From positions 1 to 64,000 of the forward strand of contig NZ_QKZV01000013.1 in NCBI RefSeq assembly GCF_003254115.1: DNA of 64,000 bases, written 5' to 3'. The notes beneath the pieces were generated by a model that saw only the letters and a list, made by a program, of their open reading frames with translations, searched no databases and had not been told where the DNA came from. Positions within the stretch are counted from its first letter, which is position 1; each line of letters opens with the position of its first letter. Origin of the DNA: Hydrotalea sandarakina (lineage in GTDB: Bacteria; Bacteroidota; Bacteroidia; Chitinophagales; Chitinophagaceae). A program made the translations under genes and the position numbers. Of the stretch, positions 1,738 to 24,977 are shown piece after piece.

Positions 1738-1788
1738 TGTTATTTAGGGAATATGGATTATAAAATTGAATTGTAGTAATAGCAATAT

Positions 1789-3009
1789 TTAATCCCCAAA
1801 AATATCATGTAGCTGCTGTTTTAATGCAGGAATATAAGCGGTGGGCGAAGTATAGTAACCACCATATTTCGCTACAATACGACCTTGTTTGTCTAATAGC
1901 AGCATAGATGGAATTGTTACTATTTGATAGGCATCCCCAATTTTTTGTAATTGCCCTCCAACTTTTTTTATCACCGGCTGATCAAATATTTGAATCCAGG
2001 GCAGGTTGGCATGTTCTACCCAACGGTGCCAGTCTGCAGCACTTTCTTCAGTAGAAATACTAATAATGGTTACATGATTCCGATACAGTGAATCTACTTT
2101 TTTAAGATATGGTTCAATTTGCCGGCAGGGCAGGCAATAAGAGGCACCAAATTCTAATAAAACATATTGCTGTTGTTGATACGCTGCCAAATGTATGGTA
2201 TTACCTTTTACATCTGTTATAGTAAAATCGGGCACAGTATTTCCTACTGCAAATTTTTTTTCATTGGCAATATTTTGTGCAATAATCTTACCATTCTTAC
2301 TATTTTTTAATGCATCAGGATAAGCTGCATACATTTTTTCCAGTGTGGTTAGTGGTATCCAATCATTATTGGAAGATGCTAACCAACTTAATGTAAAATA
2401 AGAAAATGGATTTTGTAAAATAAACAATGAATCTGCACTTTTTTGCTTACTGTTATATAGATTCATTTTTTCCTGAATTGCTTGCTGCAATGACTTACAT
2501 GCAGCAACTTGTATAGTATTGTTTTCCTGAAAAGCCTTTTGAATGGTCTTCTGATAATAAAGCATACTGTCACGTAATGGTTTTTGCAATGCGCTATAAT
2601 AAGCATTCATTACCTTGAACGCAGAAAGAATACTATCTTCTGTAGAACCGGTTAAGTGGGCATGGTTATATATATTGTTAAGTGGAATTGTTAAGTGCAT
2701 GGAAGCAGGTGATAAGAAAATATCACAATATTCATTACTAGCTACAGCATTCATTACTGGTCCAATAGAACAAGTAGCCATAACCGGTTCTGCAATGCAG
2801 CCCTTAAAATAAAAACTATGATTAACCACTTTACAACTGTCTGTTACAAATTTTGTAAGAGTTGCCGCATATTGCAGGTAAATTATTGTACCATTTGGCC
2901 ATTCTGTAGTACCTTGTATGGTAAAAGGTTTACAGGCATTCTGTTGGGCGAATAGGCAAGGAAAAGAGAATAAAAGAAGGATGGAAAAGAAAAAAATTGA
3001 ATTTCGCAT
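1789..3009 (-). CDS. DUF4369/TlpA-like secreted thioredoxin (T1)
   Basis: The 406-residue protein begins with a signal peptide (about 1-21, ending LFAQQ) and should act in the periplasm. A DUF4369-type beta domain (about 25-125) and a helical linker precede a TlpA/AhpC-type thioredoxin domain with active site C292-L-P-C295 and a cis-proline segment (TIPSMLLLD). It probably reduces, oxidises or isomerises thiols. Upstream on the same strand is the cysteine-rich precursor P1, and a hairpin with a T run separates the two. By position the likely substrate is that peptide. Similar domain pairs also occur in cytochrome maturation, but no such genes are nearby. Confidence 0.85.
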   Translation of the reverse strand: MRNSIFFFSILLLFSFPCLFAQQNACKPFTIQGTTEWPNGTIIYLQYAATLTKFVTDSCKVVNHSFYFKGCIAEPVMATCSIGPVMNAVASNEYCDIFLSPASMHLTIPLNNIYNHAHLTGSTEDSILSAFKVMNAYYSALQKPLRDSMLYYQKTIQKAFQENNTIQVAACKSLQQAIQEKMNLYNSKQKSADSLFILQNPFSYFTLSWLASSNNDWIPLTTLEKMYAAYPDALKNSKNGKIIAQNIANEKKFAVGNTVPDFTITDVKGNTIHLAAYQQQQYVLLEFGASYCLPCRQIEPYLKKVDSLYRNHVTIISISTEESAADWHRWVEHANLPWIQIFDQPVIKKVGGQLQKIGDAYQIVTIPSMLLLDKQGRIVAKYGGYYTSPTAYIPALKQQLHDIFGD

Positions 3010-3038
3010 ATTTTTTTGAATAAAATAAAAATATAAAA

Positions 3039-3073
3039 AAATTTAAGCACCTATTTAATAGGTGCTTAAATTT
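3039..3073 (-). terminator. hairpin with T run between P1 and T1
   Basis: A near-perfect 17-base stem (AAATTTAAGCACCTATT and its complement) is followed on the minus strand by TTTTTTATATTTTT. It lies between the precursor and the thioredoxin gene. It probably works as a leaky terminator that keeps peptide mRNA more abundant than enzyme mRNA. Confidence 0.6.
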
Positions 3074-3257
3074 TAGGAACATGCATAATAATAATAAGGT
3101 AGCGATTGCGTATTACATAAAGTTCTTGTGCATGTACCTGAAGTGCCCGCAATAGTTGTGCAAGTTGTACCCGGCCACTTCCTGCAGGGCATTCCTGATT
3201 ACAACTATCACTACCCCCCTTAATTTGTTTCATTTCTTCTTTAGTTAGTTGCTTCAT
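3073..3257 (-). pseudogene. disulfide-rich peptide precursor P1, frameshifted
   Basis: The start gives the leader MKQLTKEEMKQIKGG, a canonical double-glycine leader for C39 exporters. The reading frame then gives an unrelated tail. Adding one base in the GGCCGGG run near 3173-3176 restores a core with six cysteines ending YYYYACS and a stop at 3073-3075. That core resembles those of P3 and P9, which end in GYSYYQC. The gene is therefore either a recent pseudogene or carries a single-base sequencing error in a short homopolymer. It follows a dyad promoter at 3346-3374 and precedes T1. Confidence 0.7.
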
Positions 3258-3345
3258 TTTTAAAAATTTAAAAAGTTAAAAAATAACTGTACACCTGCAC
3301 AGGCAACACTTGTACTTAGGCAACCCTAAAATATAAACAATTTTT

Positions 3346-3374
3346 GAATAGTATGTGTAGGGGAAGCCCCACAA
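3346..3374 (-). promoter_or_regulatory. promoter with GTAGGG-type operator, P1 unit
   Basis: On the minus strand TTG (3372-3374), an 18-base spacer and TACTATTC (3346-3353) resemble the Bacteroidota -33/-7 boxes. The spacer holds the dyad GTGGGGCTTCCCCTAC (3357-3372). The following bases (CAAAAATTGTTTATATTTT) are nearly identical downstream of the P9 promoter at 19861. An operator between the boxes would suit a repressor, though activation cannot be excluded. Confidence 0.5.
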
Positions 3375-3410
3375 TTTTTAAATTAACAGTAAGTTAAATC
3401 TATATTAGTT

Positions 3411-4085
3411 TTAAAGAGATGTATCCCCAATTCGAATGAACTTTCTACTAATACAATAAATCAACAATCCCATCCTACCTCCTTCTATGTTTAGCTTTTT
3501 ACATATGCGTTGTATATATACTTCTATAGTTTTTTCTTCTTTGTTTAAAATAAGGCCTATTTCTTTATAGCTTAACGTGCCGGGTAATAAGCTAATAATT
3601 GAACGTTCGGTGGCCGTTAAACGAAGGCTTTTCATATTCAATTGCTCTGCCCACCGTTCTTCTCTAAGCAACTTACGTACATCGGCAGTAATACCCGTTT
3701 GTTCAGAAAAATAAGGTTGATGATTCAATATAGCTGCTATGGCTTTCGGTAATTCTTGTGGTATACTATTTAACATTACCACACTGCTAACACCGAGGGC
3801 TACCGCATCTTTCACCTGTTTTACGCCCAGTTCAGGTACTAGTAGCAAAACGGTTAAGTCCGAATAATGTGTACAAATAAATTCTATTAATGTTAATAAT
3901 TCTATTTTTTTGGAAGGCAAACCCAACACAATGAAACGGGGCAACGGTTTGGCAAAATGAAGTTGCTGTAAAAAATGTACCGCGTCGTTAAACAAAACAA
4001 TTGATAAGGATGAGAAGCAACTTTGTATTTGATGACTTACCACATTTGCCATATCAGTTTGACTGAGGTAAATAAAAATTTTCAT
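3411..4085 (-). CDS. LuxR-type regulator with degenerate receiver domain
   Basis: The 224-residue protein resembles the NarL/FixJ class. Residues 1-125 look like a receiver fold, but the phosphoacceptor aspartate is replaced (segment RFIVLGLPSKK near residue 55) and the N-terminal acidic pair is missing. It is probably not controlled by phosphorylation. Residues about 150-210 form a LuxR-type helix-turn-helix (LTATERSIISLL, SYKEIGLIL, KTIEVYIQRICKKLNI). It is divergent from the VKOR-fusion gene, and two 16-base dyads lie in the shared 160 bp promoter. This suggests it binds GTAGGG/CCCTAC sites at the heads of the peptide operons and controls itself. Confidence 0.75.
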   Translation of the reverse strand: MKIFIYLSQTDMANVVSHQIQSCFSSLSIVLFNDAVHFLQQLHFAKPLPRFIVLGLPSKKIELLTLIEFICTHYSDLTVLLLVPELGVKQVKDAVALGVSSVVMLNSIPQELPKAIAAILNHQPYFSEQTGITADVRKLLREERWAEQLNMKSLRLTATERSIISLLPGTLSYKEIGLILNKEEKTIEVYIQRICKKLNIEGGRMGLLIYCISRKFIRIGDTSL

Positions 4086-4184: not shown

Positions 4185-4214
4185 TTGTAGGGATTCCCCT
4201 ACATCGTACATATT
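4185..4214 (+). promoter_or_regulatory. promoter with perfect GTAGGG-N4-CCCTAC operator, VKOR unit
   Basis: TTG (4185-4187), a 19-base spacer and TACATATT (4207-4214) resemble -33/-7 boxes. The perfect 6+4+6 dyad GTAGGGATTCCCCTAC occupies 4187-4202. The same 16 bases recur at 12246-12261. It should drive the VKOR-fusion gene and the P2-P6 cassettes. Confidence 0.6.
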
Positions 4215-4245: not shown

Positions 4246-5856
4246 ATGGTATATAGTTTTAACACATCCTTAGATGCGGTAGCTATAAAATACGCTAAAT
4301 TGAAAAGGATACCAATAACAGCATCGCAAATAAAACAATCACTTTTAGAACATCCATTTTATCCCAGCTTATTAAGCCTAAGCGATACCTTTTCAAAATT
4401 TAACCTAAACAACGCGGCTTTTAAATTAAAAGCAACACAAGTAGAAAGCTTAGAAACACCATTTATTGCCTTTCATCAGGTAGAAAATGTGGGTAAAGAT
4501 TTTATTTTAGTACAAGACATCAACAAAAATGACGTTACTTTTTATCATAACCGGGTTAATCAAAAAACCATATCGAAAGAACAGTTTTTACAATCATTTC
4601 AACAAATTGTTTGGGTAACAGAAAATGCTACTCAAAAAAATAATCAGCAATATAAGGAATATAAAAAAGAAGAAATGTACGCAAGGTTAAAGCAGTGGAT
4701 AGCCATTGTTGCAGGCATTGCAGCCATTGCAGGATTAATGGTACTTAACCTATCAATACCTTTCAATAGCTATATTCCATATATAGCCATTGTATGTATT
4801 AAGCTAATTGGAATTCTAGCAACCAGCCTACTGTTGGTATATGAAATTGACCAAAATAATCCATTTATAAAAAATTTATGCGGTATTGGTAAGAAAACAA
4901 ATTGTGGCGCTATTCTACATAGTAAAGCTTCAAAAATTGCCGGAATATCCTGGAGTGAATTAGGCTTTATTTATTTTTCAGCCACATGTATTTTTTTACT
5001 GCTACCCGGCTTAAATTTAGATAATAAATTTTCTATTATAGCCTTATTGAGTGTCTGTGTAAGTCCTTATATTATTTTTAGTATTTATTATCAATGGAAA
5101 GTGATGAAACAATGGTGCCCTTTGTGTTTAATAGTTCAATCAGCACTTTTACTGGAACTGCTTTGGTCGGTTATTTATGTTGGCATATTTACAAAAATAT
5201 CTGATTTAACAATTTTCAACTTAAATATACTGGCTTCATTTTTTATTGCAATCGTTTTACCAACAAATTACTTATTCTTTTTAAAACCAGTATTTCAAGA
5301 TGCCAAAAAATATCAGTTATATTATCAGGCTTATAGAAGAACTCATTTTAATCCCGACGTATTCAATGGTTTGTTAGTACTTCAGCCAACTGCACCTGAT
5401 GGTTGGCAAAATATTGGCATAACAATCGGCAATCCGGAAGGTAAAATCATCATCATCAAAGTTTGCAATCCTTATTGTAACCCCTGCTCAAAAGCACATC
5501 CCGTTTTGGAAGAACTCATCCATTCAAATAAGGATATTCAGGTTAAAATCGTTTTTTTATCCAGTTCTAAAGGAGAAATTGTTGTAAACCATTTAATGGG
5601 TATATATGCAGAAGGTGATGAGTTAAAGACAAAAAATGCATTAGATGCCTGGTACTTATCACCGGAAAAAGATTATGAACAATTTGCCTCCAAATTTCCT
5701 GTAAAAGTGTCTTTAAAAGACCAGCAGGAAAAAGTAAATGCGATGAATCAATGGGTTCGTGAGGCAGCCATTGCATTTACACCCACACTATTTATCAATG
5801 GTTACAGATTGCCGGAAGATTATTCCATTGAAGATTTAAAAAATATCATCAATTAA
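4246..5856 (+). CDS. C39-like/VKOR/thioredoxin fusion, peptide disulfide-forming enzyme
   Basis: The 536-residue protein has three parts. Residues 1-140 resemble a C39 peptidase fold, but the catalytic cysteine region is missing (LLEHPFYPSLLSLSD in its place), so it may bind double-glycine leaders without cutting. Residues about 150-345 form a multi-pass VKOR domain with the loop pair C212/C220 and the quinone-site pair C291-P-L-C294. Residues about 375-536 form a DsbA-like thioredoxin domain with C411-N-P-C414 and a TPT cis-proline. VKOR enzymes pass electrons from new disulfides to quinone. The periplasmic thioredoxin end would oxidise exported peptides. It heads the unit containing P2-P6. 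Confidence 0.85.
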   Translation: MVYSFNTSLDAVAIKYAKLKRIPITASQIKQSLLEHPFYPSLLSLSDTFSKFNLNNAAFKLKATQVESLETPFIAFHQVENVGKDFILVQDINKNDVTFYHNRVNQKTISKEQFLQSFQQIVWVTENATQKNNQQYKEYKKEEMYARLKQWIAIVAGIAAIAGLMVLNLSIPFNSYIPYIAIVCIKLIGILATSLLLVYEIDQNNPFIKNLCGIGKKTNCGAILHSKASKIAGISWSELGFIYFSATCIFLLLPGLNLDNKFSIIALLSVCVSPYIIFSIYYQWKVMKQWCPLCLIVQSALLLELLWSVIYVGIFTKISDLTIFNLNILASFFIAIVLPTNYLFFLKPVFQDAKKYQLYYQAYRRTHFNPDVFNGLLVLQPTAPDGWQNIGITIGNPEGKIIIIKVCNPYCNPCSKAHPVLEELIHSNKDIQVKIVFLSSSKGEIVVNHLMGIYAEGDELKTKNALDAWYLSPEKDYEQFASKFPVKVSLKDQQEKVNAMNQWVREAAIAFTPTLFINGYRLPEDYSIEDLKNIIN

Positions 5857-5864: not shown

Positions 5865-6008
5865 ATGAAAGCTTTTCTTTTGGTTACGTTCCCTAAAAGA
5901 AAATATCCGGTGGAACGCCTGCTGCGCAATACAAGCAGCATACCGGATAAGCCAATGCCGGGTGATGCTTTAAGCTCACGGCAAACATTCAATCACTTTA
6001 AAATTTAA
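5865..6008 (+). CDS. small ORF in cassette repeat, copy 1
   Basis: The ORF encodes 47 residues with the conserved segment LLVTFPKRKYPVERLLRN and a tail ending FNHFKI. It starts 8 bases after the VKOR-fusion stop, and its own stop is 4 bases before the P2 start. This geometry suits translational coupling. Versions in the same frame occur at 7088, 8977 and 13679, and a broken one at 23009. It is basic and lacks cysteines. It could be a real peptide, a coupling device, or an open frame inside a structured RNA. I recognise no family. Confidence 0.45.
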   Translation: MKAFLLVTFPKRKYPVERLLRNTSSIPDKPMPGDALSSRQTFNHFKI

Positions 6009-6012
6009 AAAA
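5874..6012 (+). repeat. structured cassette repeat R1
   Basis: This is one of four well-kept copies upstream of precursor genes (P2, P3, P4, P8). It forms a nested hairpin: TATCCGGT (5904-5911) pairs with ACCGGATA (5942-5949), and TGCTGC (5920-5925) pairs with GCAGCA (5935-5940) around a 9-base loop. CGTTCC and GGAACG could form a competing stem. It lies only at cassettes inside units, never at unit heads. Confidence 0.8.
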
Positions 6013-6222
6013 ATGCAAACAAAAAAAATGAGCCTAGCCGACTTACAACAGCAATTGAGCAGGGCAGAAATGAAAAAGATTAAAGCGGGTGGTAACTTAG
6101 ATCAGGGCTTATCTGGCACACAGGGATATATGTGTTGCTGGACCGGCACTTCCAACTGTAGTATTTGCCAACCTGCTGCACGTCCGGATTGTGTCTCTGG
6201 CGCAACTGCAGTTGAATGTTAA
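6013..6222 (+). CDS. disulfide-rich peptide precursor P2
   Basis: The 69-residue product has the leader MQTKKMSLADLQQQLSRAEM followed by KKIKAGG, which is conserved across the locus and has the double-glycine form cut by C39 exporters. The core has six cysteines in the order CC-x6-C-x2-C-x7-C-x8-C, and none lie in the leader. It is probably cut and exported by the ABC transporter at 16315, then oxidised. T2 follows after a hairpin. Target and activity are unknown; an antimicrobial or signalling peptide is a guess. Confidence 0.8.
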   Translation: MQTKKMSLADLQQQLSRAEMKKIKAGGNLDQGLSGTQGYMCCWTGTSNCSICQPAARPDCVSGATAVEC

Positions 6223-6305: not shown

Positions 6306-7058
6306 ATGAAATATACATTCGTATGGTTACTTATTTATTTTTTTTATGGATGTACGTCACCCAATAAAAATGCTATTGCTATTGTGAATGCCCCAGAAAT
6401 TGAAAAAAATATCATGAGTTGGTTGTATTATGAACGTGATTACATGAATTGGTCAGCAGATTGTATAGCCTACAATGAGCAAGACATTCTAATTACTAAA
6501 AAAGATTTTTTAAAACAATTAACAACCGGAAAATATATACCTGTGAGATTACAAAGTAAAGACAGTATAATTCAATATCAATTATCCATAGCCCATAATG
6601 CGGAAGTGGGGAATCTGATTCGCAACAAAGCTATTGTTGAATCACATTACGATTCTATGCGCGGTATGCCACTACCTAACTTTAATTTCAAAACGATAAA
6701 CGGAGCCATCGTTGGTAACAATAGTACACCACGGAAAACCTATGTATTAAATTGCTGGTTTATTCATTGTAAATCCTGTGTTGCTGAATTTTCTCAATTG
6801 AATGAATTGGTAGATGCATACAAGAACAGACCTGATATTGGTTTTTTAGGTCTGGCATTTGATAGTACAGATAGCATCAAAGCATTTTTACCCAATCATA
6901 CGTTTAAATACACCATCATCCCCAATAAAGAAAAATATTTAATGGATACCTTACAAATTATTGGTTTTCCAACGCAGTTAATAGTAGATAGTACAGGCCA
7001 TATCATGAATGTATATTCTAATTTAAATGAAATGAAAGCGGCACTAAAACATTTGTAG
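6306..7058 (+). CDS. TlpA-like lipoprotein thioredoxin (T2)
   Basis: The 250-residue protein is the shortest of the set. It has a lipoprotein-type N-terminus (LLIYFFYGCTS, acylation at the cysteine) and lacks an obvious full DUF4369 domain. The thioredoxin domain has C155-K-S-C158 in CWFIHCKSCVAEF and the cis-proline segment GFPTQLIVD. It should be anchored to a membrane with the active site in the periplasm. It lies directly after P2, so P2 is the likely substrate. Confidence 0.8.
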   Translation: MKYTFVWLLIYFFYGCTSPNKNAIAIVNAPEIEKNIMSWLYYERDYMNWSADCIAYNEQDILITKKDFLKQLTTGKYIPVRLQSKDSIIQYQLSIAHNAEVGNLIRNKAIVESHYDSMRGMPLPNFNFKTINGAIVGNNSTPRKTYVLNCWFIHCKSCVAEFSQLNELVDAYKNRPDIGFLGLAFDSTDSIKAFLPNHTFKYTIIPNKEKYLMDTLQIIGFPTQLIVDSTGHIMNVYSNLNEMKAALKHL

Positions 7059-7248: not shown

Positions 7249-7491
7249 ATGCAAACAAAAAAATTAAGCCTTGCCGGCTTACAACAGCAATTGAGCAGGG
7301 CAGAAATGAAACAAATTAAAGCGGGTGACGGACAAACATTATTGAATGGAGATGGTTGCAATTGCGATAATAGTGACTGTGGCCCGGGAAAAGGTTCTAG
7401 CGATAGTTGCACAATATATGGCACACCTGGCAAATGTGTGTACGCTGCGTGTACCGGGTGTGGGTATTCTTACTATCAATGCACGAATTAA
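7249..7491 (+). CDS. disulfide-rich peptide precursor P3
   Basis: The 80-residue precursor has the leader MQTKKLSLAGLQQQLSRAEM then KQIKAG, and a core with eight cysteines (C-x-C-x4-C-x9-C-x8-C-x4-C-x2-C-x6-C) ending GYSYYQCTN. The core is almost the same as that of P9 at 19980, and the genes after them (T3 and T9) are also each other's closest relatives here. It should be an exported peptide with four disulfides. Confidence 0.82.
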   Translation: MQTKKLSLAGLQQQLSRAEMKQIKAGDGQTLLNGDGCNCDNSDCGPGKGSSDSCTIYGTPGKCVYAACTGCGYSYYQCTN

Positions 7492-7548: not shown

Positions 7549-8757
7549 ATGAAATGGCTACTCCTATTAGGGTTTATAGTATGTGTACATAACGCTGAAG
7601 GGCAACAAAACATCCACAATAATTTTTCTATATCGGGTTATATAAAAGGATTAGACAGTGGATGGTTGTATTTAAACTACATACCCATACCCAATGAAAA
7701 AGGGATTTTAGACAGTTGCAAAATTAAAAATGGACACTTTCAATTCAAGGGTAAAATACAAGAACCAATGTTATCAAACCTAACCACATTTAACTTTCAG
7801 GAAAAAGTTGACCCATTAAATATTGCACAGTTCTATCTGGAAGCCTCCAAAATGCAGATTCAAGTTGAATATAATCATTTTAAAAAAATTTTAGTTTCGG
7901 GTTCGTTTACAGATAAAGATTATAGAGATTACATAAGATTAAAAAGTGATAATTTTAAATTATTGAATTTAATAACAGATAGCATTATTTCCTATCGTGA
8001 AAAAATACGTTCAGCAGAAAAAAGTAAGATCAGTGAAAATATTTTTGATAGTATGCATAAAAAAATAAATCAATTAGAAGCAAAGAGAAATCTTGAATTT
8101 AATAATGGCATTAATATAGATAAGACATTTATAACCTTTCACAAAAATTCAATACTATCAGCTATTTTATTATATAATTTTAAAAATGAATGGATTTCAT
8201 TAACAGAAATCAGGCATTTATTCAACCAGCTTTCTAATAAAATTAAATTAACATCAGTTGGTAAAAAAATTGAAAAAAAAATCACAATGGCATTGAATGA
8301 CCAACTTATCCCTGCTAAATTATTTACGGCCATTCAGAGAAATGGAGATACTATACATTTATCAGATTTTAAATATAAATATATATTGTTAGACTTCAAT
8401 GCCTCATGGTGTATCCCCTGCAGGCAAATAATACCTAAACTCAAAAAATTGTATGAAAAATATAATGACAAACTGGTAATACTGAGCATATCAAATCAAA
8501 CAGATAAAAAAGATTGGATAAAAGCAATTCAAGAAGATAAGATAAGCTGGCCCTGCATATTGGAGAATGATGAAAATCCAATCCTATCTCCCATTGGCCA
8601 AAGCATCACAAAAATGTATGGAATACAAACGTTTCCATCGTTGATTTTAATTAATGATGATTTAAAGGTTGTTGGTTGGTATGGTAATTTTTATCAGTCA
8701 AAACAAGACTTTTTATTAGAGCTTAAAAATAAATTAAGGTACAGTTTTGGTTATTAG
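7549..8757 (+). CDS. DUF4369/TlpA-like secreted thioredoxin (T3)
   Basis: The 402-residue protein has a signal peptide (about 1-19, ending EGQQ), a DUF4369 domain (about 25-120), a lysine-rich helical middle and a thioredoxin domain with C288-I-P-C291 and the cis-proline segment TFPSLILI. It closely resembles T9: both share stretches such as YLNYIPIPN and GILDSCKI, while their precursors P3 and P9 are also a pair. This points to a dedicated enzyme for one peptide type. Confidence 0.86.
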   Translation: MKWLLLLGFIVCVHNAEGQQNIHNNFSISGYIKGLDSGWLYLNYIPIPNEKGILDSCKIKNGHFQFKGKIQEPMLSNLTTFNFQEKVDPLNIAQFYLEASKMQIQVEYNHFKKILVSGSFTDKDYRDYIRLKSDNFKLLNLITDSIISYREKIRSAEKSKISENIFDSMHKKINQLEAKRNLEFNNGINIDKTFITFHKNSILSAILLYNFKNEWISLTEIRHLFNQLSNKIKLTSVGKKIEKKITMALNDQLIPAKLFTAIQRNGDTIHLSDFKYKYILLDFNASWCIPCRQIIPKLKKLYEKYNDKLVILSISNQTDKKDWIKAIQEDKISWPCILENDENPILSPIGQSITKMYGIQTFPSLILINDDLKVVGWYGNFYQSKQDFLLELKNKLRYSFGY

Positions 8758-9123: not shown

Positions 9124-9309
9124 ATGAGCCTTGCCGACTTACAACAGCAATTGAGCAGGGCAGAAATGAAACAAATTAAAGCAGGTAGCTATGCAGGGTT
9201 AAATACCTGTGCACCAGCCGGAGAAAAATGCCCTAATCATGATGGAACTCCAGATGGTTGCTGCGGAAGCTGTAAACCAAATTCTACGGGAATAAAATTA
9301 TGTTACTAA
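9124..9309 (+). CDS. knottin-like disulfide-rich peptide precursor P4
   Basis: The ATG used by the other precursors (here at 9110) runs into a stop after five codons, because the A run is one base shorter. The leader therefore starts at the internal methionine, MSLADLQQQLSRAEMKQIKAG, giving 61 residues. The core has six cysteines spaced C-x6-C-x9-CC-x2-C-x9-C. This order, with the adjacent middle pair, is the one seen in cystine-knot (knottin) peptides. P5 follows 17 bases later with the same pattern, and T4 comes after both. Confidence 0.78.
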   Translation: MSLADLQQQLSRAEMKQIKAGSYAGLNTCAPAGEKCPNHDGTPDGCCGSCKPNSTGIKLCY

Positions 9310-9326
9310 TAATTAAATTATTAAAT

Positions 9327-9512
9327 ATGATAACACAATTAGAAAAATTATCAAAACAGGAAATGAAATTGATAAAAGCAGGTTCAGGAGAAATGGGATT
9401 AGGTTGCGCTACTGCAGGACAACTCTGTCCTGCCCCAGGTGCAAAATATGATGGCTGTTGTGGCACTTGTGATATGACTTACAATCCCAGTGGTAAAAAC
9501 TACTGTTCCTAA
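9327..9512 (+). CDS. knottin-like disulfide-rich peptide precursor P5
   Basis: The start MITQLEKLSKQEMKLIKAG is chosen because it matches the leader family; an upstream ATG at 9300 overlaps P4 and adds a non-leader stretch. The core has six cysteines, C-x6-C-x9-CC-x2-C-x11-C, with the same framework as P4 and matching glycines before the CC pair. P4 and P5 look like an internal duplication sharing T4. A perfect hairpin follows the gene. Confidence 0.8.
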   Translation: MITQLEKLSKQEMKLIKAGSGEMGLGCATAGQLCPAPGAKYDGCCGTCDMTYNPSGKNYCS

Positions 9513-9578: not shown

Positions 9579-10742
9579 ATGAAATTGAAAAAAATAATTC
9601 ATTCACCGATACTAATTTTTTGTTTACTGTTTTCTATAGAACTTACAGCACAAGAAAACAATTTTAAATTAACAGGTACATTAAATGGATTTCCAAATGA
9701 TACTAAAGTGATATTTACTTATCCGAATTTAGACGATTTCGTTTTAGATACAAATGTTTTAAATATTCATAATAATACTTTTCATTTTACGGGATTAATT
9801 AAAACACCTCAACTATTTCAATTAGAATTTTCAAATAGTGAATTTGATGTAATTACGAATTATATGTTTTTAGATACAGGTGAACAAAAAATTTCAATTG
9901 ACAAAAAAAATTTAAAATTTAATTCATATTTTATTAATGGTTCAGCTGTTAATCAGCATTATTTAAATGATTTCTTGCCATTGTTGAAAGAATATGACAG
10001 CCTACATTATAATTGGGAAAAACAAATGCAAAAATTATATGACCAGAATGAAGGTTTAACACTTGAAAAGAAAAGAGGAATATTAAGAACAGAATATATA
10101 AATAATATACGACCATTAAAAGACAGCGCATTATTACATTTTACCTTAAAAGAAACTGATCCATTTATCAGTCTTTGGTTGTTAAATGAATATATTAAAG
10201 CAAATGGATACAGTGAAATTTATAAAACCATCTTAAATCTCATTCCTGATAAATATCTACAATCAAATATTGGGAAACTCGTTAAAGAAAATTGTAAAGA
10301 TTTAAGCAAAACAGCCATCGGAGAAACACTACCTACGTTAAAGTTAATTGATATGAATCATCAACCACTTAAAATAAGTTACACAAAAAATAGTAGCAAA
10401 TATATATTAATTGATTTTTGGTTTGCACATTGCGGTGCATGTATAAGGCAATTCCCTTTCTTAAAAGACATTTATCAACAATTTAGCAGAAAATATTTTA
10501 CCATTTACAGTATTTCAATTGATAATGAAAAAAATATTCCTTTAGCTAAACAGATAGTTTCAAATCAAAAAATAAAGTGGCCAATTTTTTTCGATGTAAA
10601 TGGATTAAATATTTTAAAAATAATTGGAAATACATTCCCATCTAATGTACTAATAAATTCAAGCGGGAAAATAATTGCTAAAAATATTGAGCCAGTTATG
10701 TTATTAGATTTTTTAAAAAGAAAAAAGACTGAAGACTTATAG
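9579..10742 (+). CDS. DUF4369/TlpA-like secreted thioredoxin (T4)
   Basis: The 387-residue protein has a signal peptide (about 1-24, ending LTAQ), a DUF4369 domain, a helical region and a thioredoxin domain with C285-G-A-C288 in FWFAHCGACIRQF. The cis-proline segment is TFPSNVLIN. The FWFxHC type of active site groups it with T5, T6 and T10 rather than with T1, T3, T7 and T9. By position it would serve P4 and P5. The end of the gene abuts the headless precursor P6. Confidence 0.85.
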   Translation: MKLKKIIHSPILIFCLLFSIELTAQENNFKLTGTLNGFPNDTKVIFTYPNLDDFVLDTNVLNIHNNTFHFTGLIKTPQLFQLEFSNSEFDVITNYMFLDTGEQKISIDKKNLKFNSYFINGSAVNQHYLNDFLPLLKEYDSLHYNWEKQMQKLYDQNEGLTLEKKRGILRTEYINNIRPLKDSALLHFTLKETDPFISLWLLNEYIKANGYSEIYKTILNLIPDKYLQSNIGKLVKENCKDLSKTAIGETLPTLKLIDMNHQPLKISYTKNSSKYILIDFWFAHCGACIRQFPFLKDIYQQFSRKYFTIYSISIDNEKNIPLAKQIVSNQKIKWPIFFDVNGLNILKIIGNTFPSNVLINSSGKIIAKNIEPVMLLDFLKRKKTEDL

Positions 10743-12636: not shown

Positions 12637-12665
12637 ATAGGTATTGAATAATATTCAATGCCTAT
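12637..12665 (+). promoter_or_regulatory. hairpin between P7 and T6
   Basis: ATAGGTATTGAAT pairs with ATTCAATGCCTAT (one G-U pair) around a 3-base loop. It ends 16 bases before the T6 start and could limit ribosome access or read-through. Confidence 0.5.
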
Positions 12666-12681
12666 ACTTAAACTGCGCAAT

Positions 12682-18525: not shown

Positions 18526-19858
18526 TCAATCAAATTCTTTCCAAAATAACGGAAACAAAATTGAAGCTTACAACAATAAGCTTTGGGCTATTGAAGAAAA
18601 TAATTCATTAATCGATGAAATTATATCAGAAAAACCATCATTTTTAGTTAGATGGGGAACACTTTTATTTCTTTTCATATTGATCATATTTTTTATTATT
18701 TGTTGGTTTATAAAATATCCAGATATTATAACAACATCTGCAAAGCTCACTTCAATCAATACACCTAAACCAATAGTTAGTGTAAGCAATGGGAAATTGA
18801 TTAAATTATTAAAAAAAGAGGGGGACTATTTTAAACAGGGAGATATGATTGCTTATATTGAAGCTATAGGGAATCATGAGGAAGTTTTGTATGTTAAAAA
18901 ACAAATTGACAATGCACTTTCAGCAATTTCTTCAAATCAATTTACTAAAGCAGTTCAATCATTTAAAAATAACATTGAAAATCTTGGTGAATTACAAAGC
19001 AGCTATCAAAATTTTATGCAAGCCAATTTGAGTTTTAAAGCATATTTACCTAATGGGTTTTATACAAAAAAATATGAAATGTTGGAAAAAGACCTGATTA
19101 ATATAAAACGTTTACATAATATCTTATTAGACCAAAAAAAATTAATGGAACAAGATTTACAGCTTTCTGAAAAAACATTTCATGCAAATGAATCCCTGAA
19201 AAAAGAAAAAGTAATTTCTGATTTTGATTATCGCACTGAAGCCAGTAAGTTGATTAATAAGCAGTTAACCATACCACAAATAAGTGCAGCAATTGTTTCA
19301 AATGAGTCTTTAAAAATTGATAAACAAAAAGAGTTAGCAGAATTAAGCAATACAATTCAGCAACAAAAAATTTTATACCTACAAACATTAAATACGCTTA
19401 AAAGCCAAGTTGATGATTGGATAAAGAAATATATTTTAGTTGCTTCTGAAAATGGTATCTTATCTTTTGCATCATTGACTGAAGAAAATCAACAAATTCA
19501 AGCCGGACAAGTTATTTGTTATATTAACCCAAATAATAGTAAGTATTATGTCATCATTAATGTTCCTCAAACAAATTTTGGGAAAGTAAAAACCCGGCAA
19601 AAAGTTTTATTGAAGTTAAATGCTTATCCCTATCAGGAATTTGGCTATATAGAGGGTAGAATCTCTTTTATTTCAGCCATTCCAACCGATAGTGGCTATA
19701 TGGCGAAAGTAAATTTAGTAAATGGCTTAAAAACGAATTTTAATAAAGCTTTACAATACAGAGAAGGTTTAACTGCACAAGCTTCTATCATAACAGCTGA
19801 AAAACGCTTATTACAACGTTTTTATGAAAATTTTTTAAAAATTATCAATAGAAATTAA
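18515..19858 (+). CDS. HlyD-family periplasmic adaptor
   Basis: The 447-residue protein links the ABC exporter to an outer-membrane channel. It has a short cytosolic start, one membrane segment (about 47-70, LLFLFILIIFFIICWFI), a lipoyl/barrel half (KLIKLLKKEGDYFKQGDMI), a long coiled coil (about 120-300) and a second barrel half (LVASENGILSFASL) with a beta domain. The start is TTG at 18515, overlapping the exporter by 11 bases; no ATG is available before residue 100, and the overlap implies coupling. No TolC-type gene is in the window. Confidence 0.88.
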   Translation: MENNQSNSFQNNGNKIEAYNNKLWAIEENNSLIDEIISEKPSFLVRWGTLLFLFILIIFFIICWFIKYPDIITTSAKLTSINTPKPIVSVSNGKLIKLLKKEGDYFKQGDMIAYIEAIGNHEEVLYVKKQIDNALSAISSNQFTKAVQSFKNNIENLGELQSSYQNFMQANLSFKAYLPNGFYTKKYEMLEKDLINIKRLHNILLDQKKLMEQDLQLSEKTFHANESLKKEKVISDFDYRTEASKLINKQLTIPQISAAIVSNESLKIDKQKELAELSNTIQQQKILYLQTLNTLKSQVDDWIKKYILVASENGILSFASLTEENQQIQAGQVICYINPNNSKYYVIINVPQTNFGKVKTRQKVLLKLNAYPYQEFGYIEGRISFISAIPTDSGYMAKVNLVNGLKTNFNKALQYREGLTAQASIITAEKRLLQRFYENFLKIINRN

Positions 19859-19860: not shown

Positions 19861-19889
19861 TTGTAGGGCTTACCCTATACATACTATTC
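19861..19889 (+). promoter_or_regulatory. promoter with GTAGGG-type operator, P9 unit
   Basis: TTG (19861-19863), an 18-base spacer and TACTATTC (19882-19889) enclose the imperfect dyad GTAGGGCTTACCCTAT (19863-19878). The region through 19910 is nearly the same as the P1 promoter on the other strand, so the two heads share ancestry. Confidence 0.55.
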
Positions 19890-19979: not shown

Positions 19980-20216
19980 ATGAAAAATTTGAGTCTCACA
20001 GATCTCAGAGGTAAACTCTCAAAAAATGAAATGAAACAAATTAAAGCGGGTGACGTACAAACTTTATTGAATGGAGATGGTTGCAATTGCGATAATAGCG
20101 ACTGTGGCCCAGGAAAAGGACCTGGAGAAAGTTGCACTTTATACGGAACGATAGGAAAATGTGTTTATAGTGCCTGTTCCGGATGTGGTTATTCTTATTA
20201 TCAATGCGTTGTGTAA
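19980..20216 (+). CDS. disulfide-rich peptide precursor P9
   Basis: The 78-residue precursor has the leader MKNLSLTDLRGKLSKNEM then KQIKAG, and a core with eight cysteines at the same spacing as P3, sharing stretches such as QTLLNGDGCNCDNSDCGPGK. The leader differs from P3 (no MQTKK start), while the core hardly differs. This suggests the core is under stronger constraint or was copied more recently. T9 follows. Confidence 0.83.
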   Translation: MKNLSLTDLRGKLSKNEMKQIKAGDVQTLLNGDGCNCDNSDCGPGKGPGESCTLYGTIGKCVYSACSGCGYSYYQCVV

Positions 20217-20267: not shown

Positions 20268-21470
20268 ATGAAATGGTTTATAATATTAGTTATAATTACA
20301 ATTGCAAGTAGTAGCGTAGGCCAAAAGAAAAATAATTTTATTGTATCCGGGTACATACAAGGAAAAGATACCGGGTGGGTTTATCTAAATTATATACCAA
20401 TACCAAATGGTAAAGGTATTTTAGACAGTTGCAAGATTAGAGATGGAAATTTTCAATTCAAAGGATATGTAGAAGAACCTACTTTAGCCAACTTAACCAC
20501 TTTCGGTTTTCATGAAAAAATTGAGCCATTAAATGTTGGAAATTTTTATTTAGAAAACACTGAAATTCATGTTTCACTTATCAATCATCAATTTAACAAT
20601 ATTCAAGTAAGCGGCTCAAGAAATGACAGTCTTTATAGAAAATATATACAGTTAAAAAAGCCTATTAATGAAACATTAAATTCTATATCTGATAGTTTAT
20701 TTGCTTATAGAAAAAAAATGAAGGATGCTAATGAGAAAAAGGATGCTAATGAAGTATTAGATCATTTAAATAAACAAATTCATAACTTAACAACAATTGA
20801 AAACACAACAATTCAACATGGAATTAGCATCGATAAAACATTCATTAAAGAATATCCCAATGATCAGTTTTCTGCAGTAATATTAAATTATCTTAGAACC
20901 GAATGGGTCTCTATAAATGAAATAACTAATCTATATGATAACCTAAGCACTGCTATCAAAAATTCATATTTGGGCAAAAAAATTCATGAAAAAATAATGA
21001 TTGCTTCTAATACCAATATGACCAACGCTAAGCAATTTATAGCAAAAGATAATAAAGGGGATACTATCAATTTATATAATTTAATGGGGAAATATATTTT
21101 ATTAGAGTTTAGTGCATCTTGGTGCTTACCATGCAAACAATTACTACCTATAATAAAGCAAATACAGAAAAAATATTCAGATAAACTTTTAATAATTAGC
21201 ATATCTAATCAGGAAAACGAAAAGGAATGGACAAAGGATATACATGATAATGAAATAACTTGGCCATGTATTATAGAAAATGAAGGCAATCCAATAATAT
21301 CGCCTGTAGAAAAGCGAATTACTGACATGTATGGTGTGCAAAGTATTCCTTCATTGATTTTGATTAACAATCATTTACAAATTATTGGTTGGTATGGTGG
21401 ATTTTATCAATCAAAGCAGGATTTTGTCACCGATTTAAAACAAAAATTGGAAGCAATATTCGAGCAGTGA
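20268..21470 (+). CDS. DUF4369/TlpA-like secreted thioredoxin (T9)
   Basis: The 400-residue protein has a signal peptide (about 1-18, ending SVGQ), a DUF4369 domain (about 22-115), a helical middle with KDANEKKDANE, and a thioredoxin domain with C286-L-P-C289 in FSASWCLPCKQLLP. The cis-proline segment is SIPSLILIN. It is the closest relative of T3 here, matching the P3/P9 relation. Confidence 0.86.
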   Translation: MKWFIILVIITIASSSVGQKKNNFIVSGYIQGKDTGWVYLNYIPIPNGKGILDSCKIRDGNFQFKGYVEEPTLANLTTFGFHEKIEPLNVGNFYLENTEIHVSLINHQFNNIQVSGSRNDSLYRKYIQLKKPINETLNSISDSLFAYRKKMKDANEKKDANEVLDHLNKQIHNLTTIENTTIQHGISIDKTFIKEYPNDQFSAVILNYLRTEWVSINEITNLYDNLSTAIKNSYLGKKIHEKIMIASNTNMTNAKQFIAKDNKGDTINLYNLMGKYILLEFSASWCLPCKQLLPIIKQIQKKYSDKLLIISISNQENEKEWTKDIHDNEITWPCIIENEGNPIISPVEKRITDMYGVQSIPSLILINNHLQIIGWYGGFYQSKQDFVTDLKQKLEAIFEQ

Positions 21471-21603: not shown

Positions 21604-21619
21604 GTAGGGATTTCCCCAT
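21604..21619 (+). promoter_or_regulatory. degenerate GTAGGG-type operator, P10 unit
   Basis: GTAGGGATTTCCCCAT keeps the left arm and the preceding AAATT context, but the right arm is imperfect. It is 166 bases before the P10 start, a similar distance to that of the P7 site from its gene. No clear -7 box was found. Confidence 0.45.
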
Positions 21620-21769: not shown

Positions 21770-21928
21770 ATGAAACCTTTAACTAAAGATGAAATGAAAC
21801 AAATCAAAGCTGGCAGTAATGTTGAATTAGATAATAATAGCTGCCCTGCAACATGTAATACCAATTGTAATGCACCTTACTGTAAATGTGATACAAATGG
21901 AAGTAATGTTTGTGATAAAAATTACTAA
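21770..21928 (+). CDS. disulfide-rich peptide precursor P10
   Basis: This 52-residue gene has the short leader MKPLTKDEMKQIKAG, like that of P1, and a core with six cysteines spaced as in P7 (C-x3-C-x3-C-x4-C-x-C-x7-C). The final 19 residues are the same as in P7. The leader has been trimmed or replaced while the core stayed, as in the P3/P9 pair. T10, the near-copy of T6, follows after 76 bases. Confidence 0.8.
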   Translation: MKPLTKDEMKQIKAGSNVELDNNSCPATCNTNCNAPYCKCDTNGSNVCDKNY

Positions 21929-22004: not shown

Positions 22005-23006
22005 GTGAAAAAAATAATTCTTTGTTTAGCATACATCAGTATTGGCTTTATACAAGCACAAACAATTGATAAACATTTTACCTTAAATGGCTACATTAAT
22101 TGTGATACTGGCACTATTCGATTGATATTAACCGGTGATAGTTCCAATTATCCCCCTATCCATTCTTCAACGATAGAAAAAATTCAAAATGGTCAGTTTT
22201 CATTTAGTGGCACTTTATCATACCCATTAGCATTTCGTCTTTTATTCATAGGAGCAAAAGAGTATATTTCAGACCAGTTTTATATTGATGCCGGGACACA
22301 AACCATCACATGCCATGTTGATTCCCTCCGTGAAATTCCTGACATAAATAATAAAACAATGCAGGAATTGCGCCAATTTAAGCAACATCATTATACAGTA
22401 GAGACCATACAACAATATACTAAAAAAAATCCCGATTCTTACATGGCATTGTGGCAATTGGCAAGAATGCTTTCTTTCAATTACAATCCCCATTTAGATA
22501 CAGCATTTGCTTATTTGTCTGATGCGGTTAAAATGAGCTATACGGGTACCAGTTTAGCTAAAAAATTAAAAGCTGCCTCTAGATTAAGCCTGCATCGTGT
22601 TTTTCCAAATTTAACATTATTAGACAGGTCTAATCATCCTACAAAACTTTTTACTCACCGACAATCGAACAAGTATATACTGATTGATTTTTGGTTCAGC
22701 CATTGTAACCCTTGTATTGGGCAGTTTTCACAATTCAAACAAATATATCAGCAATTCAAAAATGTTAATTTTGATATGATTGGGATATCTATTGATGACA
22801 ATCAAAATATAGTAAACTGGCAAAAGATAATTGATGAACAACAACTACCATGGAAACAATTATTAGATAAAAACGGCGAGCAGGCCTACAAGTTAGCCAT
22901 TGATACTTACCCTAGAAACTTTCTTTTAGATAGTAATTATGTTATTATCCGAAAAGATATAACACCTGAAGTTTTAAATAATTTTTTAGCTGAAAAAAAT
23001 AAATAA
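22005..23006 (+). CDS. DUF4369/TlpA-like secreted thioredoxin (T10)
   Basis: The 333-residue protein starts with GTG (22005), giving MKKIILCLAYISIGFIQAQ, a clean signal peptide aligned with T6. The DUF4369 domain, helical part and thioredoxin domain with C234-N-P-C237 match T6 residue for residue over long stretches. It ends AEKNK, without the extra tail of T6. It is most likely specific for the P10/P7 peptide type. Confidence 0.85.
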   Translation: MKKIILCLAYISIGFIQAQTIDKHFTLNGYINCDTGTIRLILTGDSSNYPPIHSSTIEKIQNGQFSFSGTLSYPLAFRLLFIGAKEYISDQFYIDAGTQTITCHVDSLREIPDINNKTMQELRQFKQHHYTVETIQQYTKKNPDSYMALWQLARMLSFNYNPHLDTAFAYLSDAVKMSYTGTSLAKKLKAASRLSLHRVFPNLTLLDRSNHPTKLFTHRQSNKYILIDFWFSHCNPCIGQFSQFKQIYQQFKNVNFDMIGISIDDNQNIVNWQKIIDEQQLPWKQLLDKNGEQAYKLAIDTYPRNFLLDSNYVIIRKDITPEVLNNFLAEKNK

Positions 23007-23008
23007 AC

Positions 23009-23160
23009 ATGAATCTTCTTTTCATAAAGTTCCTTAAAAGAAAATATTACTAAATCAAATTCTGGGCTATACAAGCAGCAAACCGTAAAAGTCAATGCAA
23101 ATGAACGCTCTAAGATCCTTTCAAAAAATCAATCACTTAAAACATTTTAATAATACAAAA
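23009..23160 (+). pseudogene. decayed cassette repeat R5 with broken small ORF
   Basis: The sequence still aligns with R1-R4 (MNLLFIKFLKRKYY then a stop at 23051; CAAGCAGCAAACCG remains), but the TATCCGGT arm is lost and the stem no longer forms. The small ORF is cut at 14 residues. It leads the dead precursor P11. Confidence 0.6.
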
Positions 23161-23162
23161 AA

Positions 23163-23396
23163 ATACTTAAACTTTCCAATTTACAGCAGTAATGAGCAAG
23201 AATGAAGTTAAAAAATTAAAGCAGGCACATAAATAAACGCCGGATGTACCTTTTCATTAACAGCGACAATGGGTGTGGTGGTTGAAGCAACTTTGTTCAT
23301 TGTAATGGTTCCACAAGTGATTGTCAAACAGTTGCAGATCAAATTTGCGCAGCATCTAATTGTTGTGATGATGTTGTATGCGGATCGACAAATTAG
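23163..23396 (+). pseudogene. decayed disulfide-rich peptide precursor P11
   Basis: The leader is still visible at the DNA level (TTACAGCAG, AATGAGCAAGAATGAAG, ATTAAAGCAGGC), but the start codon is lost and stops interrupt it. The core region has further stops and shifts, while the last 34 codons remain open with cysteines (ADQICAASNCCDDVVCGSTN, then stop at 23394). It is a relic of an eleventh cassette; the partner T11 is intact. Confidence 0.65.
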
Positions 23397-23463
23397 GTAT
23401 AATAAAACGGAAACACATCTATTATACATTAATTAACGACATTAATTAATCAAAACAAAACAA

Positions 23464-24933
23464 GTGAAAAAATTTTTTGTTACACTTATATTGATAATTT
23501 TAAAAATAAATGCTTTTTCGCAGGTGACTATCCATTTCATAGATTCAGAAAAAGTACATCCGGATAGTTTTTATTTTAAAATATATGCACCCATTAATAC
23601 ACAAGGAACGCTGTTTGCGAATCCATATTATTTAGACACAATAAAGGCGTATGATATAACAAATAATAGATCTAAAACAACAGTAGAATACCAAATAAAA
23701 GATACTTCTATAGGTTTTTTTGCTGATTTGTTCGGAAAAGAAACAATTCTTATACCGAATGATCAAGTCAATATTCAAATACATAGAAGAGGCGTAAGAG
23801 ATGATAGCATTAAAATAAATAATAAATTTTATGCATATTGGGCCTATGATTATATCTATCAGGGAAAAAACAAGTATTTATATACTATACTTGACACGCT
23901 TACCTATTACACAGGATATGTTTATAAATATTTTATAAAATTTGAACCTGACAAATATTCGTTAAATGATTATTACGATTCTGTAAGCAAAATTTATTCA
24001 TCAAGATTAAAGATAATTCATCAATATACCTCAAAATATAACATTCCGAAAAGTATAGCCGAACTTGTAAACGCAGAATGTTATGCAGCTTATATAATAA
24101 ATTTGTTAATACCATTACAGGGTAATGACATTTTACCTGAAAAGTATGCCCGTACACTAAAAAACATTGATTTTAATTATCGCTATTTATTTAAAACGCC
24201 CTTATACGCTGATGCTTATTTAGATTATGTTGAAAAGTATTTGGTTAAATATTTGCAACAAACTACCAATCCTGAAAATACTTTTCAAGCAACTTATTTG
24301 GCCATAAAAAATGCATTCCCCAATTCAAATACTGGTGCCATTTTATTGTCGAGATACATCATGAATAATGAAAAAAAACATTTCGCTTGTTTTGATAGTT
24401 TATGTAACAATTTTAAGTTCAACTATCCTACGGCCTCACAAATTCATATCCTTGATTCACTGGTGGAAAGGCATAGAGAAAAAAATAAAATAACTAAAAA
24501 CGATGCCTTTAGTGCTTTACTTTTATCGGCTACTATGCAATTTTTCAATATTCAAAAATGTTTAAATAAAAAACCAATCATCATTAATTGTTGGGCATCT
24601 TGGTGTAGCCCATGTATTAAGGAAATACCGATACTGGAAGCAAAAATGAAAGAATATAATGACAATATTGATATCATTTATATTTCATTTGATAACAATA
24701 AAAGTGATTGGTTAAAAAAACAAAATGAATTAGGTATTAATCAACAGCAATCTTATTTACTTATCAATAATTTTAAATCTGCCATGGCTAACTATTTTGA
24801 TATCACTGCTATTCCTCGCTTAATTTTAGTAGATGCAGATGGGAATATAGTTAATGAACATTTGCCATCGCCCAATAATGATGCATTTAAAAACAACATT
24901 GATGCATTATTAAAGAAAAGTAAATTATATTGA
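23464..24933 (+). CDS. large TlpA-like secreted thioredoxin (T11)
   Basis: The 489-residue protein starts with GTG (23464) and has a signal peptide (about 1-19, ending AFSQ). The first 350 residues do not look like the DUF4369 of its neighbours and are longer, rich in tyrosine. The C-terminal thioredoxin domain has C381-S-P-C384 in CWASWCSPCIKEIP and the segment AIPRLILVD. It follows the dead precursor P11, so it may lack a substrate or act more generally. A terminator follows, closing the locus. Confidence 0.8.
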   Translation: MKKFFVTLILIILKINAFSQVTIHFIDSEKVHPDSFYFKIYAPINTQGTLFANPYYLDTIKAYDITNNRSKTTVEYQIKDTSIGFFADLFGKETILIPNDQVNIQIHRRGVRDDSIKINNKFYAYWAYDYIYQGKNKYLYTILDTLTYYTGYVYKYFIKFEPDKYSLNDYYDSVSKIYSSRLKIIHQYTSKYNIPKSIAELVNAECYAAYIINLLIPLQGNDILPEKYARTLKNIDFNYRYLFKTPLYADAYLDYVEKYLVKYLQQTTNPENTFQATYLAIKNAFPNSNTGAILLSRYIMNNEKKHFACFDSLCNNFKFNYPTASQIHILDSLVERHREKNKITKNDAFSALLLSATMQFFNIQKCLNKKPIIINCWASWCSPCIKEIPILEAKMKEYNDNIDIIYISFDNNKSDWLKKQNELGINQQQSYLLINNFKSAMANYFDITAIPRLILVDADGNIVNEHLPSPNNDAFKNNIDALLKKSKLY

Positions 24934-24977
24934 AGATGATTAATAGCTTTATGTTAAATGATATATGTAATTTGGAA

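Follow-up and report, generated by a model that had tools for sequence, protein, structure and literature searches.

A locus of predicted multi-disulfide peptides with TlpA-like partners and a VKOR fusion in Hydrotalea sandarakina

Introduction

Several described systems resemble a peptide locus of Hydrotalea sandarakina (genome G000, contig C13), which lies at 1.7–25 kb of a stretch of 64,000 nucleotides, referred to below as the window, and combines precursors of cysteine-rich exported peptides with genes of TlpA-like proteins and a fusion of C39-like, VKOR and DsbA-like domains. Of these, the disulfide modules of sublancin (a glycocin) and pediocin come closest. The Gram-positive sublancin 168 cluster (sunA, sunT, bdbA, bdbB) yields a peptide with two disulfides plus a sugar; like the window, it includes a leader-bearing precursor, a C39 ATP-binding cassette (ABC) exporter and dedicated thiol-disulfide oxidoreductases making the disulfides, but BdbA and BdbB are separate and there is neither a fusion nor a precursor–TlpA array (PMC8620827). 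Pediocin PA-1 (class IIa) also has a leader-bearing precursor, an ABC exporter and an accessory protein, PedC, improving the formation of correct disulfides. Unlike the window, it is one four-Cys peptide of a four-gene operon without VKOR and without arrays of cognate TlpA proteins, and it possesses a separate immunity gene, pedB (PMC5465099).

Other likenesses concern parts of the system. The leader motif is shared with the NCBIfam families leader_Chryseo (NF047798) and CCPGW family putative bacteriocin (NF047792), which matched 33 and 9, respectively, of the 112 precursors (from a total of 129) covered by the profile-library scans at E ≤ 0.01; the matches of the window's precursors are below the curated cut-offs, and the family names imply no disulfide system. 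Animal and plant knottins, which are products of the eukaryotic secretory pathway, are similar to some cores in Cys spacing and the short beta-hairpin, as judged by profile and by a weak resemblance of models, but the cores differ from them in the double-glycine (GG) leader and bacterial export. Bacterial VKOR–thioredoxin fusions share the VKOR and the DsbA-like part, but in the example of genome G007 no C39-like domain is apparent and no precursor pattern is found nearby. What distinguishes the locus from these known modules is its VKOR fusion, the arrangement in cassettes, TlpA partners matched to cores and cores of the knottin type. The original prediction, made from the DNA of the window alone, named no known system with this one-to-one layout, and none was found among the titles listed in searches of the open literature, subscription papers being mostly outside their reach.

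With a probability of roughly two in three, the locus serves secretion-coupled oxidative folding, in which cognate disulfide cassettes would share one leader-docking oxidase and a single C39 exporter. According to the original prediction, multi-disulfide peptides are produced and oxidised here, each with a thioredoxin-like partner of its own; this is supported by the parity of cysteines, the sole VKOR, the absence of DsbB and the co-segregation of cores and TlpA-like proteins.

Precursors and cysteine content of the cores

An alignment of seven fusions was used to scan a genome collection, and of the 297 relatives confirmed the best 80 were kept as 79 loci; counts out of 80 refer to these 79 public loci plus the window. 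The nearest relative is H. flava, with a fusion 81% identical to that of the window. In the window, the GG-leader precursors sit between the larger open reading frames (ORFs) of the locus. Ten precursors and one relic had been counted previously, and this count is corrected here to nine intact cores and two relics, p0 being frameshifted in the core and p10 degenerate. The substitution rate ratio dN/dS (nonsynonymous to synonymous) refers to the comparison with H. flava.

6013..6222, + strand: precursor p1, 6 Cys, dN/dS 0.09
7249..7491, + strand: precursor p2, 8 Cys, paralogue of p8
9124..9309, + strand: precursor p3, 6 Cys, knottin-type spacing 6-9-0-2-9
9300..9512, + strand: precursor p4, 6 Cys, knottin-type spacing 6-9-0-2-11
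10757..10927, + strand: precursor p5, 6 Cys, leader truncated, usual start absent, a TTG start at best
12416..12604, + strand: precursor p6, 6 Cys
13830..14033, + strand: precursor p7, 6 Cys
19980..20216, + strand: precursor p8, 8 Cys
21770..21928, + strand: precursor p9, 6 Cys, leader start MKPLTKDEM
3066..3257, − strand: relic precursor p0, frameshift in the core
23130..23400 (approximate limits), + strand: relic precursor p10, leader and core degenerate, decayed upstream repeat kept

A full-length orthologue of p5 is present in H. flava (L099:10986-11219). The leaders end in a GG/AG-type site and a C39 exporter with a catalytic Cys is encoded nearby, as in GG-leader peptides, and cleavage at this site is predicted. 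Between the two Hydrotalea species, dN/dS was 0.15 for p6, 0.10 for p5 and 0.24 for p7; values of 0.09–0.24 were obtained in five of seven precursor or core comparisons, dS being saturated in the other two, including p9 versus the p6 orthologue. Therefore, the precursors are real, constrained genes.

A pattern describing only the leader retrieved 133 unique cores in the 79 loci and the window. Four cores with at most two Cys were dropped before the parity count, namely two of L076 (0 Cys, chance), a relic of L038 (1 Cys) and the relic p0 (2 Cys). This left 129 cores, which belong to the window and 67 of the public loci. The number of cysteines is even in 125 of the 129 cores (4 Cys in 7, 6 in 83, 8 in 30, 10 in 3 and 12 in 2) and odd in 4, an excess with a binomial p of 3e-32. 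With near-duplicates removed, 110 of 114 cores have an even number; among random ORFs of similar size with at least 4 Cys, the proportion is 1338 of 2050. Six or eight cysteines occur in 113 of the 129 cores, the sequences of which otherwise differ widely. By every indirect sign tested, the cores appear to be disulfide peptides.

Comparisons with profile libraries gave scattered matches. TIGR04149, a family of peptides named as modified by radical S-adenosylmethionine (radical-SAM) enzymes, matched 36 of the 112 precursors weakly (best 6.5e-6); the window's matches are below its cut-off of 25 bits and no radical-SAM gene is present in the locus, so that the assignment to these ribosomally made, modified peptides is not borne out. 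Bacteriocin_IIc of Pfam matched 5 of the 112 precursors, also weakly. Among eukaryotic Cys-rich families of Pfam, Dickkopf_N matched one precursor (2.5e-6) and WAP two (best 3.8e-4), and two precursors matched Myxo_Cys_RPT of NCBIfam (best 2e-9). The search of solved structures with the p7-like group of cores returned four rows, the best of them a Dumpy fragment with E 0.0015.

The VKOR fusion, the exporter and the disulfide enzymes of the genome

The machinery shared by the cassettes is encoded by three genes, and the Pfam scan bore out the gene content proposed earlier, comprising the C39-like/VKOR/thioredoxin fusion, the C39 ABC exporter, the HlyD adaptor and a regulator.

4246..5856, + strand: fusion of C39-like, VKOR and DsbA-like thioredoxin (CNPC) domains by Pfam, with no conserved Cys in the C39-like domain
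16315..18525, + strand: C39 peptidase ABC exporter, catalytic Cys in DAMDCGPTC, Pfam Peptidase_C39 (1e-32), ABC_tran and ABC_membrane
18515..19858, + strand: HlyD-type membrane-fusion adaptor, Pfam HlyD_3 (9e-12)

The E-values of the domains of the fusion are 1.9e-16 for VKOR, 2.9e-9 for Peptidase_C39 (profile positions 46–130 only) and 1.1e-6 for Thioredoxin_4. The cysteines typical of the VKOR family (residues 212, 220, 291 and 294) and the CxxC of the thioredoxin part are kept in all 82 fusions compared. The catalytic Cys of Peptidase C39 is missing: no column of reference residues 1–140 reaches 80% Cys in the 82 sequences. In HlyB, a C39-like domain without the catalytic Cys is a substrate-binding domain, and for this reason a docking role is proposed for the C39-like domain of the fusion. 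Among the 49 related exporters longer than 650 amino acids (aa), the Cys-Gly motif is kept in 48 and the His-Asp pattern in 46.

The genome of the window encodes one VKOR, namely the fusion, and one DsbD; no DsbB was found in it. DsbB, the type to which BdbB of the sublancin cluster belongs, was found in none of the 59 genomes comprising this one and its relatives. A VKOR above the cut-off is present in six of these 59 genomes. In five of them it belongs to a whole fusion, and in the remaining one, G007, it is a plain VKOR–DsbA protein with no precursor pattern in the 16 kb around it. Two further Hydrotalea genomes (G001, G003) contain only fragments of the fusion. Thus, in this sample of 59 genomes, a quinone-linked disulfide oxidase nearly marks the peptide system.

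Further C39 sequences of the genome were observed outside the locus, in an exporter-size ORF (C20, 3692-4021, − strand) and in a C39 fragment (C5, 194-334, + strand).

TlpA-like partners

The TlpA-like proteins of the window are the following:

1789..3009, − strand: t0, DUF4369-TlpA-like, CLPC, behind relic p0
6306..7058, + strand: t1, short TlpA-like, CKSC, lipoprotein-like start by eye, partner of p1
7549..8757, + strand: t2, DUF4369-TlpA-like, CIPC, partner of p2
9579..10742, + strand: t3, DUF4369-TlpA-like, CGAC, behind p3 and p4
11004..12149, + strand: t5, TlpA-like, CSPC, partner of p5
12658..13713, + strand: t6, TlpA-like, CNPC, partner of p6
14090..15229, + strand: t7, DUF4369-TlpA-like, CIPC, now behind p7
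15267..16308, + strand: t8, relic DUF4369-TlpA, frameshifted, thioredoxin part lost
20268..21470, + strand: t9, DUF4369-TlpA-like, CLPC, partner of p8
22005..23006, + strand: t10, DUF4369-TlpA-like, CNPC, partner of p9
23464..24933, + strand: t11, TlpA-like without a recognised DUF4369, CSPC, behind relic p10

Eleven DUF4369/TlpA-like proteins had been proposed. Ten TlpA-like proteins are indeed intact, but the eleventh, t8, is a relic, and DUF4369 is not a feature of all: it reaches the Pfam cut-off in t0, t2, t3, t7, t9, t10 and the first half of t8, scores just under it in t5 and t6 in the protein scan, and was not found in t1 or t11 by the Pfam scan. The proposed layout of one thioredoxin per peptide holds approximately, with p3 and p4 sharing t3 and the relic t8 adjoining t7. 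In H. flava, an intact orthologue of the relic t8 (62–65%) follows the p7-type precursor (L020:14377-15889), and it is probable that in the window t7 took over from t8, the presumed original partner, behind p7 (14090–16308). The position of a class II bacteriocin immunity gene is occupied only by the TlpA-like partner.

The association of core and partner was analysed in 94 adjacent precursor–TlpA pairs from 53 loci by finding the best match of each core in another locus. The limit of core distance, 0.62, was chosen by the author and fixed before the result, and it left 16 distinct pairs. In 13 of these 16 core matches, the partner TlpA is the closest among about 90, and in the rest it is second, third and fourth; the fusion is the closest in only 5, with a median rank of 10.5 of 52. 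In the eight core matches with remote fusions (rank of at least 16), the TlpA ranks are 1, 1, 1, 4, 1, 2, 1 and 3, two of these matches sharing one TlpA pair. The unusual TlpA motif CGAC is found behind knottin-type cores both in the window (p3 and p4, with t3) and in L080. Permutation of cores within loci gave p 0.001 for the N-terminal part of TlpA and 0.008 for the thioredoxin part. In these comparisons, each type of core is accompanied by its type of TlpA, also between loci with distantly related fusions.

Knottin-type cores

The inhibitor-cystine-knot (ICK) framework C-x3-7-C-x3-12-CC-x2-7-C-xn-C is present in 15 of the 129 cores; shuffled cores show this spacing in 1.6 cases on average and in at most 6 in 500 trials. 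The comparison of a profile of 12 ICK-type cores with the PDB gave 31 sequences with E up to 10, of which five reach E ≤ 0.001. Maurocalcin (7.7e-6) and psalmotoxin lead the list, and nearly all rows are venom or plant knottin-type peptides by name. As a control, the profile of whole precursors (112 of 129) against solved structures returned six rows, none of which was a knottin, the best being a GG-leader bacteriocin with E 0.066. Structure searches with single cores were weak, with best E-values of 0.075 for p3 and 0.011 for a core of L021.

The AlphaFold model of the p3 core has a pLDDT of 68.6 and its best match, with Z 3.2 and a root-mean-square deviation (rmsd) of 1.8 over 33 residues, is a plant trypsin inhibitor. 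For the L021 core, from another genome, the pLDDT is 81.7 and the best match is nemertide alpha-1 (Z 4.7, rmsd 1.0 over 30 residues). The best E-values of Foldseek were 0.22 for the L021 core and 1.9 for p3, and there was no row at E ≤ 0.001 for either model. The models thus weakly resemble knottins, and the Z-scores of 3.2–4.7 may reflect merely a common arrangement. The matches of ten of the 15 ICK-type cores with animal toxin families of Pfam (e.g., PF08099, PF05980 and PF17557) were all below the cut-offs. The likeness probably represents a shared, convergent scaffold and carries no information on targets.

Distribution of the system in Bacteroidota

Fusion matches with E < 1e-55 were found in 24 of 395 genomes sampled from the class and in 40 of 395 sampled from the phylum (in G344 the match is split over two frames); the two samples overlap, at most three candidates were scored per genome, and most weaker matches are C39 exporters. 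The original prediction was to be abandoned if the precursors were not conserved next to these genes in relatives. This was examined, and a precursor lies no more than 700 nucleotides downstream of the fusion in 73 of the 80 loci, in 70 by the pattern and in three by eye (L022, L048, L081). Of the seven others, L027 is cut off after 740 bases, the exporter follows the fusion immediately in L037, L041 and L053, and other genes occupy this place in L060, L071 and L079.

In the 66 loci with at least 9 kb downstream, TlpA-like proteins were found in 52, the ABC exporter in 53 and HlyD in 48, and precursor, TlpA and exporter together, anywhere in the fetched stretch, in 43. Of the 145 precursor features, 92 are followed by a TlpA-like gene, 18 by a further precursor, 5 by an exporter and 5 by something else; 15 are next to the edge, and 10 have no feature behind them for 1.5 kb. 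Among 121 TlpA-like ORFs of at least 250 aa, CxxC is present in 119 and the motif CxPC in 113. The cassettes of H. flava are located on two contigs, L099 (G002:C79) and L020 (G002:C105), one of which shares the right flank of the window. The cassette set of H. flava is largely different from that of the window, which is turnover at one chromosomal site.

Regulator, repeated box and noncoding element

The candidate regulatory features of the locus are as follows:

3411..4085, − strand: regulator of the LuxR type (GerE), no receiver domain recognised, with an orthologue in the corresponding position of H. flava (L020:9161-9835)
4187..4199, + strand: box GTAGGGNTTNCCC, candidate operator, upstream of the fusion
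12246..12258, + strand: box GTAGGGNTTNCCC, upstream of p6
19863..19875, + strand: box GTAGGGNTTNCCC, upstream of p8
21604..21616, + strand: box GTAGGGNTTNCCC, upstream of p9
3357..3372, − strand: variant box GTGGGGCTTCCCCTAC, upstream of relic p0
5868..6012, + strand: conserved noncoding element with predicted hairpins, upstream of p1
about 7103-7248, 8965-9108 and 13685-13829: copies of the element, before p2, p3 and p7
about 23007-23162: decayed copy of the element, before relic p10

The four copies of GTAGGGNTTNCCC in the genome are all in the locus, and six of the seven exact matches in H. flava are on its two cassette-bearing contigs. The regulator gene adjoins the box and may, judging by this position, control the locus through it. 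Outside Hydrotalea the search for the regulator gave one match, in L064, so that it does not belong to the general make-up of the system. The noncoding element, about 140 nucleotides long, also precedes three precursors in H. flava. It has three predicted hairpins, in which one of 33 pairs is changed on both sides (G-C to A-U between species), and a search of Rfam with positions 1–27000 gave no match at E ≤ 1. With an unfavourable covariation term, these data do no more than suggest a functional RNA.

Neighbouring genes

The locus is flanked by a DDE transposase gene (99-1637) on one side and a gene of the deoxyhypusine-synthase family (25212-26186) on the other. The transposase (DDE_Tnp_1_6, − strand) adjoins the locus and could help to move cassettes. 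All ORFs of at least 100 aa at 1.7–25 kb encode TlpA-like proteins (one relic), the fusion, the C39 ABC exporter, HlyD or the LuxR-type regulator. Since each is thus assigned, there are no lanthionine, radical-SAM or azole enzymes among the ORFs of this size in the locus, just as had been stated originally. A peptide glycosyltransferase, as expected of a glycocin, was not found between 1.7 and 25 kb either; a GT2-like gene is situated outside the locus (26287-27231), in the flank common to the window and H. flava.

In the relatives, 70 of 167 other ORFs downstream of fusions were scanned, and DUF6625 (11), GT25 (4) and GT61 (3) were found; no radical-SAM or lanthionine enzymes occur among the 25 commonest of the 36 Pfam families in those 70 ORFs. 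Six examples were checked singly, DUF6625 in L061, L080 and L091 and GT25-like proteins in L040, L050 and L060, those of L050 and L060 being below the Pfam cut-off. Possibly, the disulfide-rich peptides of some relatives are glycosylated, a Gram-negative parallel to glycocins. Proteins of the Porph_ging family (two checked, from a group of five) were observed behind precursors in L046:12202-17355 and L048:11897-12763, and maybe represent an alternative partner where a TlpA-like gene is expected.

Discussion

Secretion-coupled oxidative folding would proceed as follows. The GG-type leader seen in the precursors would be removed on export by the C39 peptidase of the exporter, the peptide passing through an ABC–HlyD channel, as the families of these proteins suggest. 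The C39-like domain of the fusion, which lacks the catalytic Cys and would be peptidase-dead, may dock leaders or leader–exporter complexes at the cytosolic side, and the VKOR and DsbA-like parts would oxidise the emerging core. In the periplasm, a cognate TlpA-like protein would fold or proofread each core, probably as an isomerase or a reductase, and the TlpA-like proteins would probably be kept reduced by the single DsbD-like protein of the genome. The expected products are stable multi-disulfide peptides, some of them knottin-like, released as a mixed repertoire. Tentatively, this repertoire is most likely directed against competing microbes.

Several points weigh against this explanation. 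The disulfides, the peptides and their activity are predictions from the genes. Some Cys is present in or before the C39-like part in 45 of the 82 fusions, at no conserved position. In five long-flank loci with a precursor and an exporter (L029, L032, L050, L075 and L098) no TlpA-like gene was detected by profile. The partner seems exchangeable, since t7 appears to have replaced t8 behind p7, and 3 of 12 DUF4369 matches are outside the locus, so the family is not exclusive to the peptides. The global rank correlation of core and TlpA distances is weak (0.09 and 0.14), the signal residing in close matches, and physical linkage alone could produce the joint travel of neighbours, at least in part.

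The partners have also been considered as immunity proteins that reduce or bind the cognate antibacterial peptide in the periplasm, with folding left to the fusion. The arrangement fits this: one divergent secreted protein stands directly behind each peptide (next after 92 of 145 precursors), the types of core and TlpA co-segregate, and CxPC, a feature of TlpA/ResA-type reductases, is found in 113 of 121 proteins. An intact TlpA is retained behind both relic precursors of the window, p0 and p10, and once in L038 (14282), but a TlpA fragment lies behind an intact precursor in L033, and t8, the pair in L077 and perhaps a second protein of L038 are broken. Breakage seems to occur both ways, and the relics therefore show no clear asymmetry; comparing broken precursors beside an intact TlpA with broken TlpA genes beside an intact precursor did not separate immunity from folding. 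The five loci where a TlpA was not found and the purifying selection on cores between Hydrotalea species also speak against immunity, and mere binding is unlikely because CxxC is nearly always kept. On balance, pure immunity is unlikely. A combined role seems distinctly unlikely as well, namely a modular repertoire in which the cognate TlpA both folds the peptide and protects the producer by reducing it, cassettes being swapped around one VKOR machine.

It is somewhat unlikely that peptides folded by the same route are signals or surface and adhesion factors instead of antimicrobials. Taken together, the cores contain more Asp and Glu than Lys and Arg and are rich in Gly, Ser and Thr, unlike typical cationic membrane-active peptides, and the Hydrotalea locus has its own regulator gene and a box confined to the locus in the genome of the window, but the diversity of sequences and the turnover of cassettes at one site in two species fit conflict better than they do a conserved signal. 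Modification of the cysteines by enzymes encoded elsewhere (e.g., to radical-SAM thioethers), with the redox proteins as housekeeping components, is very improbable. The weak resemblance of the leaders to TIGR04149 is in its favour, but the even numbers of cysteines, the occurrence of VKOR in related genomes almost only with this system and the lack of modification enzymes, both in the locus of the window and among the commonest families downstream of other fusions, argue against it.

If secretion-coupled oxidative folding is the correct explanation, the locus would represent a dedicated bacterial genetic system that folds many multi-disulfide miniproteins with partners matched to peptide types. 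The 129 cores make up a large natural set of scaffolds, some of them built on the knottin plan, which is in use for peptide design. Correct disulfide formation in a cell that lacks DsbB can be tested cleanly with this system, which also hints at the purpose of VKOR in these bacteria.

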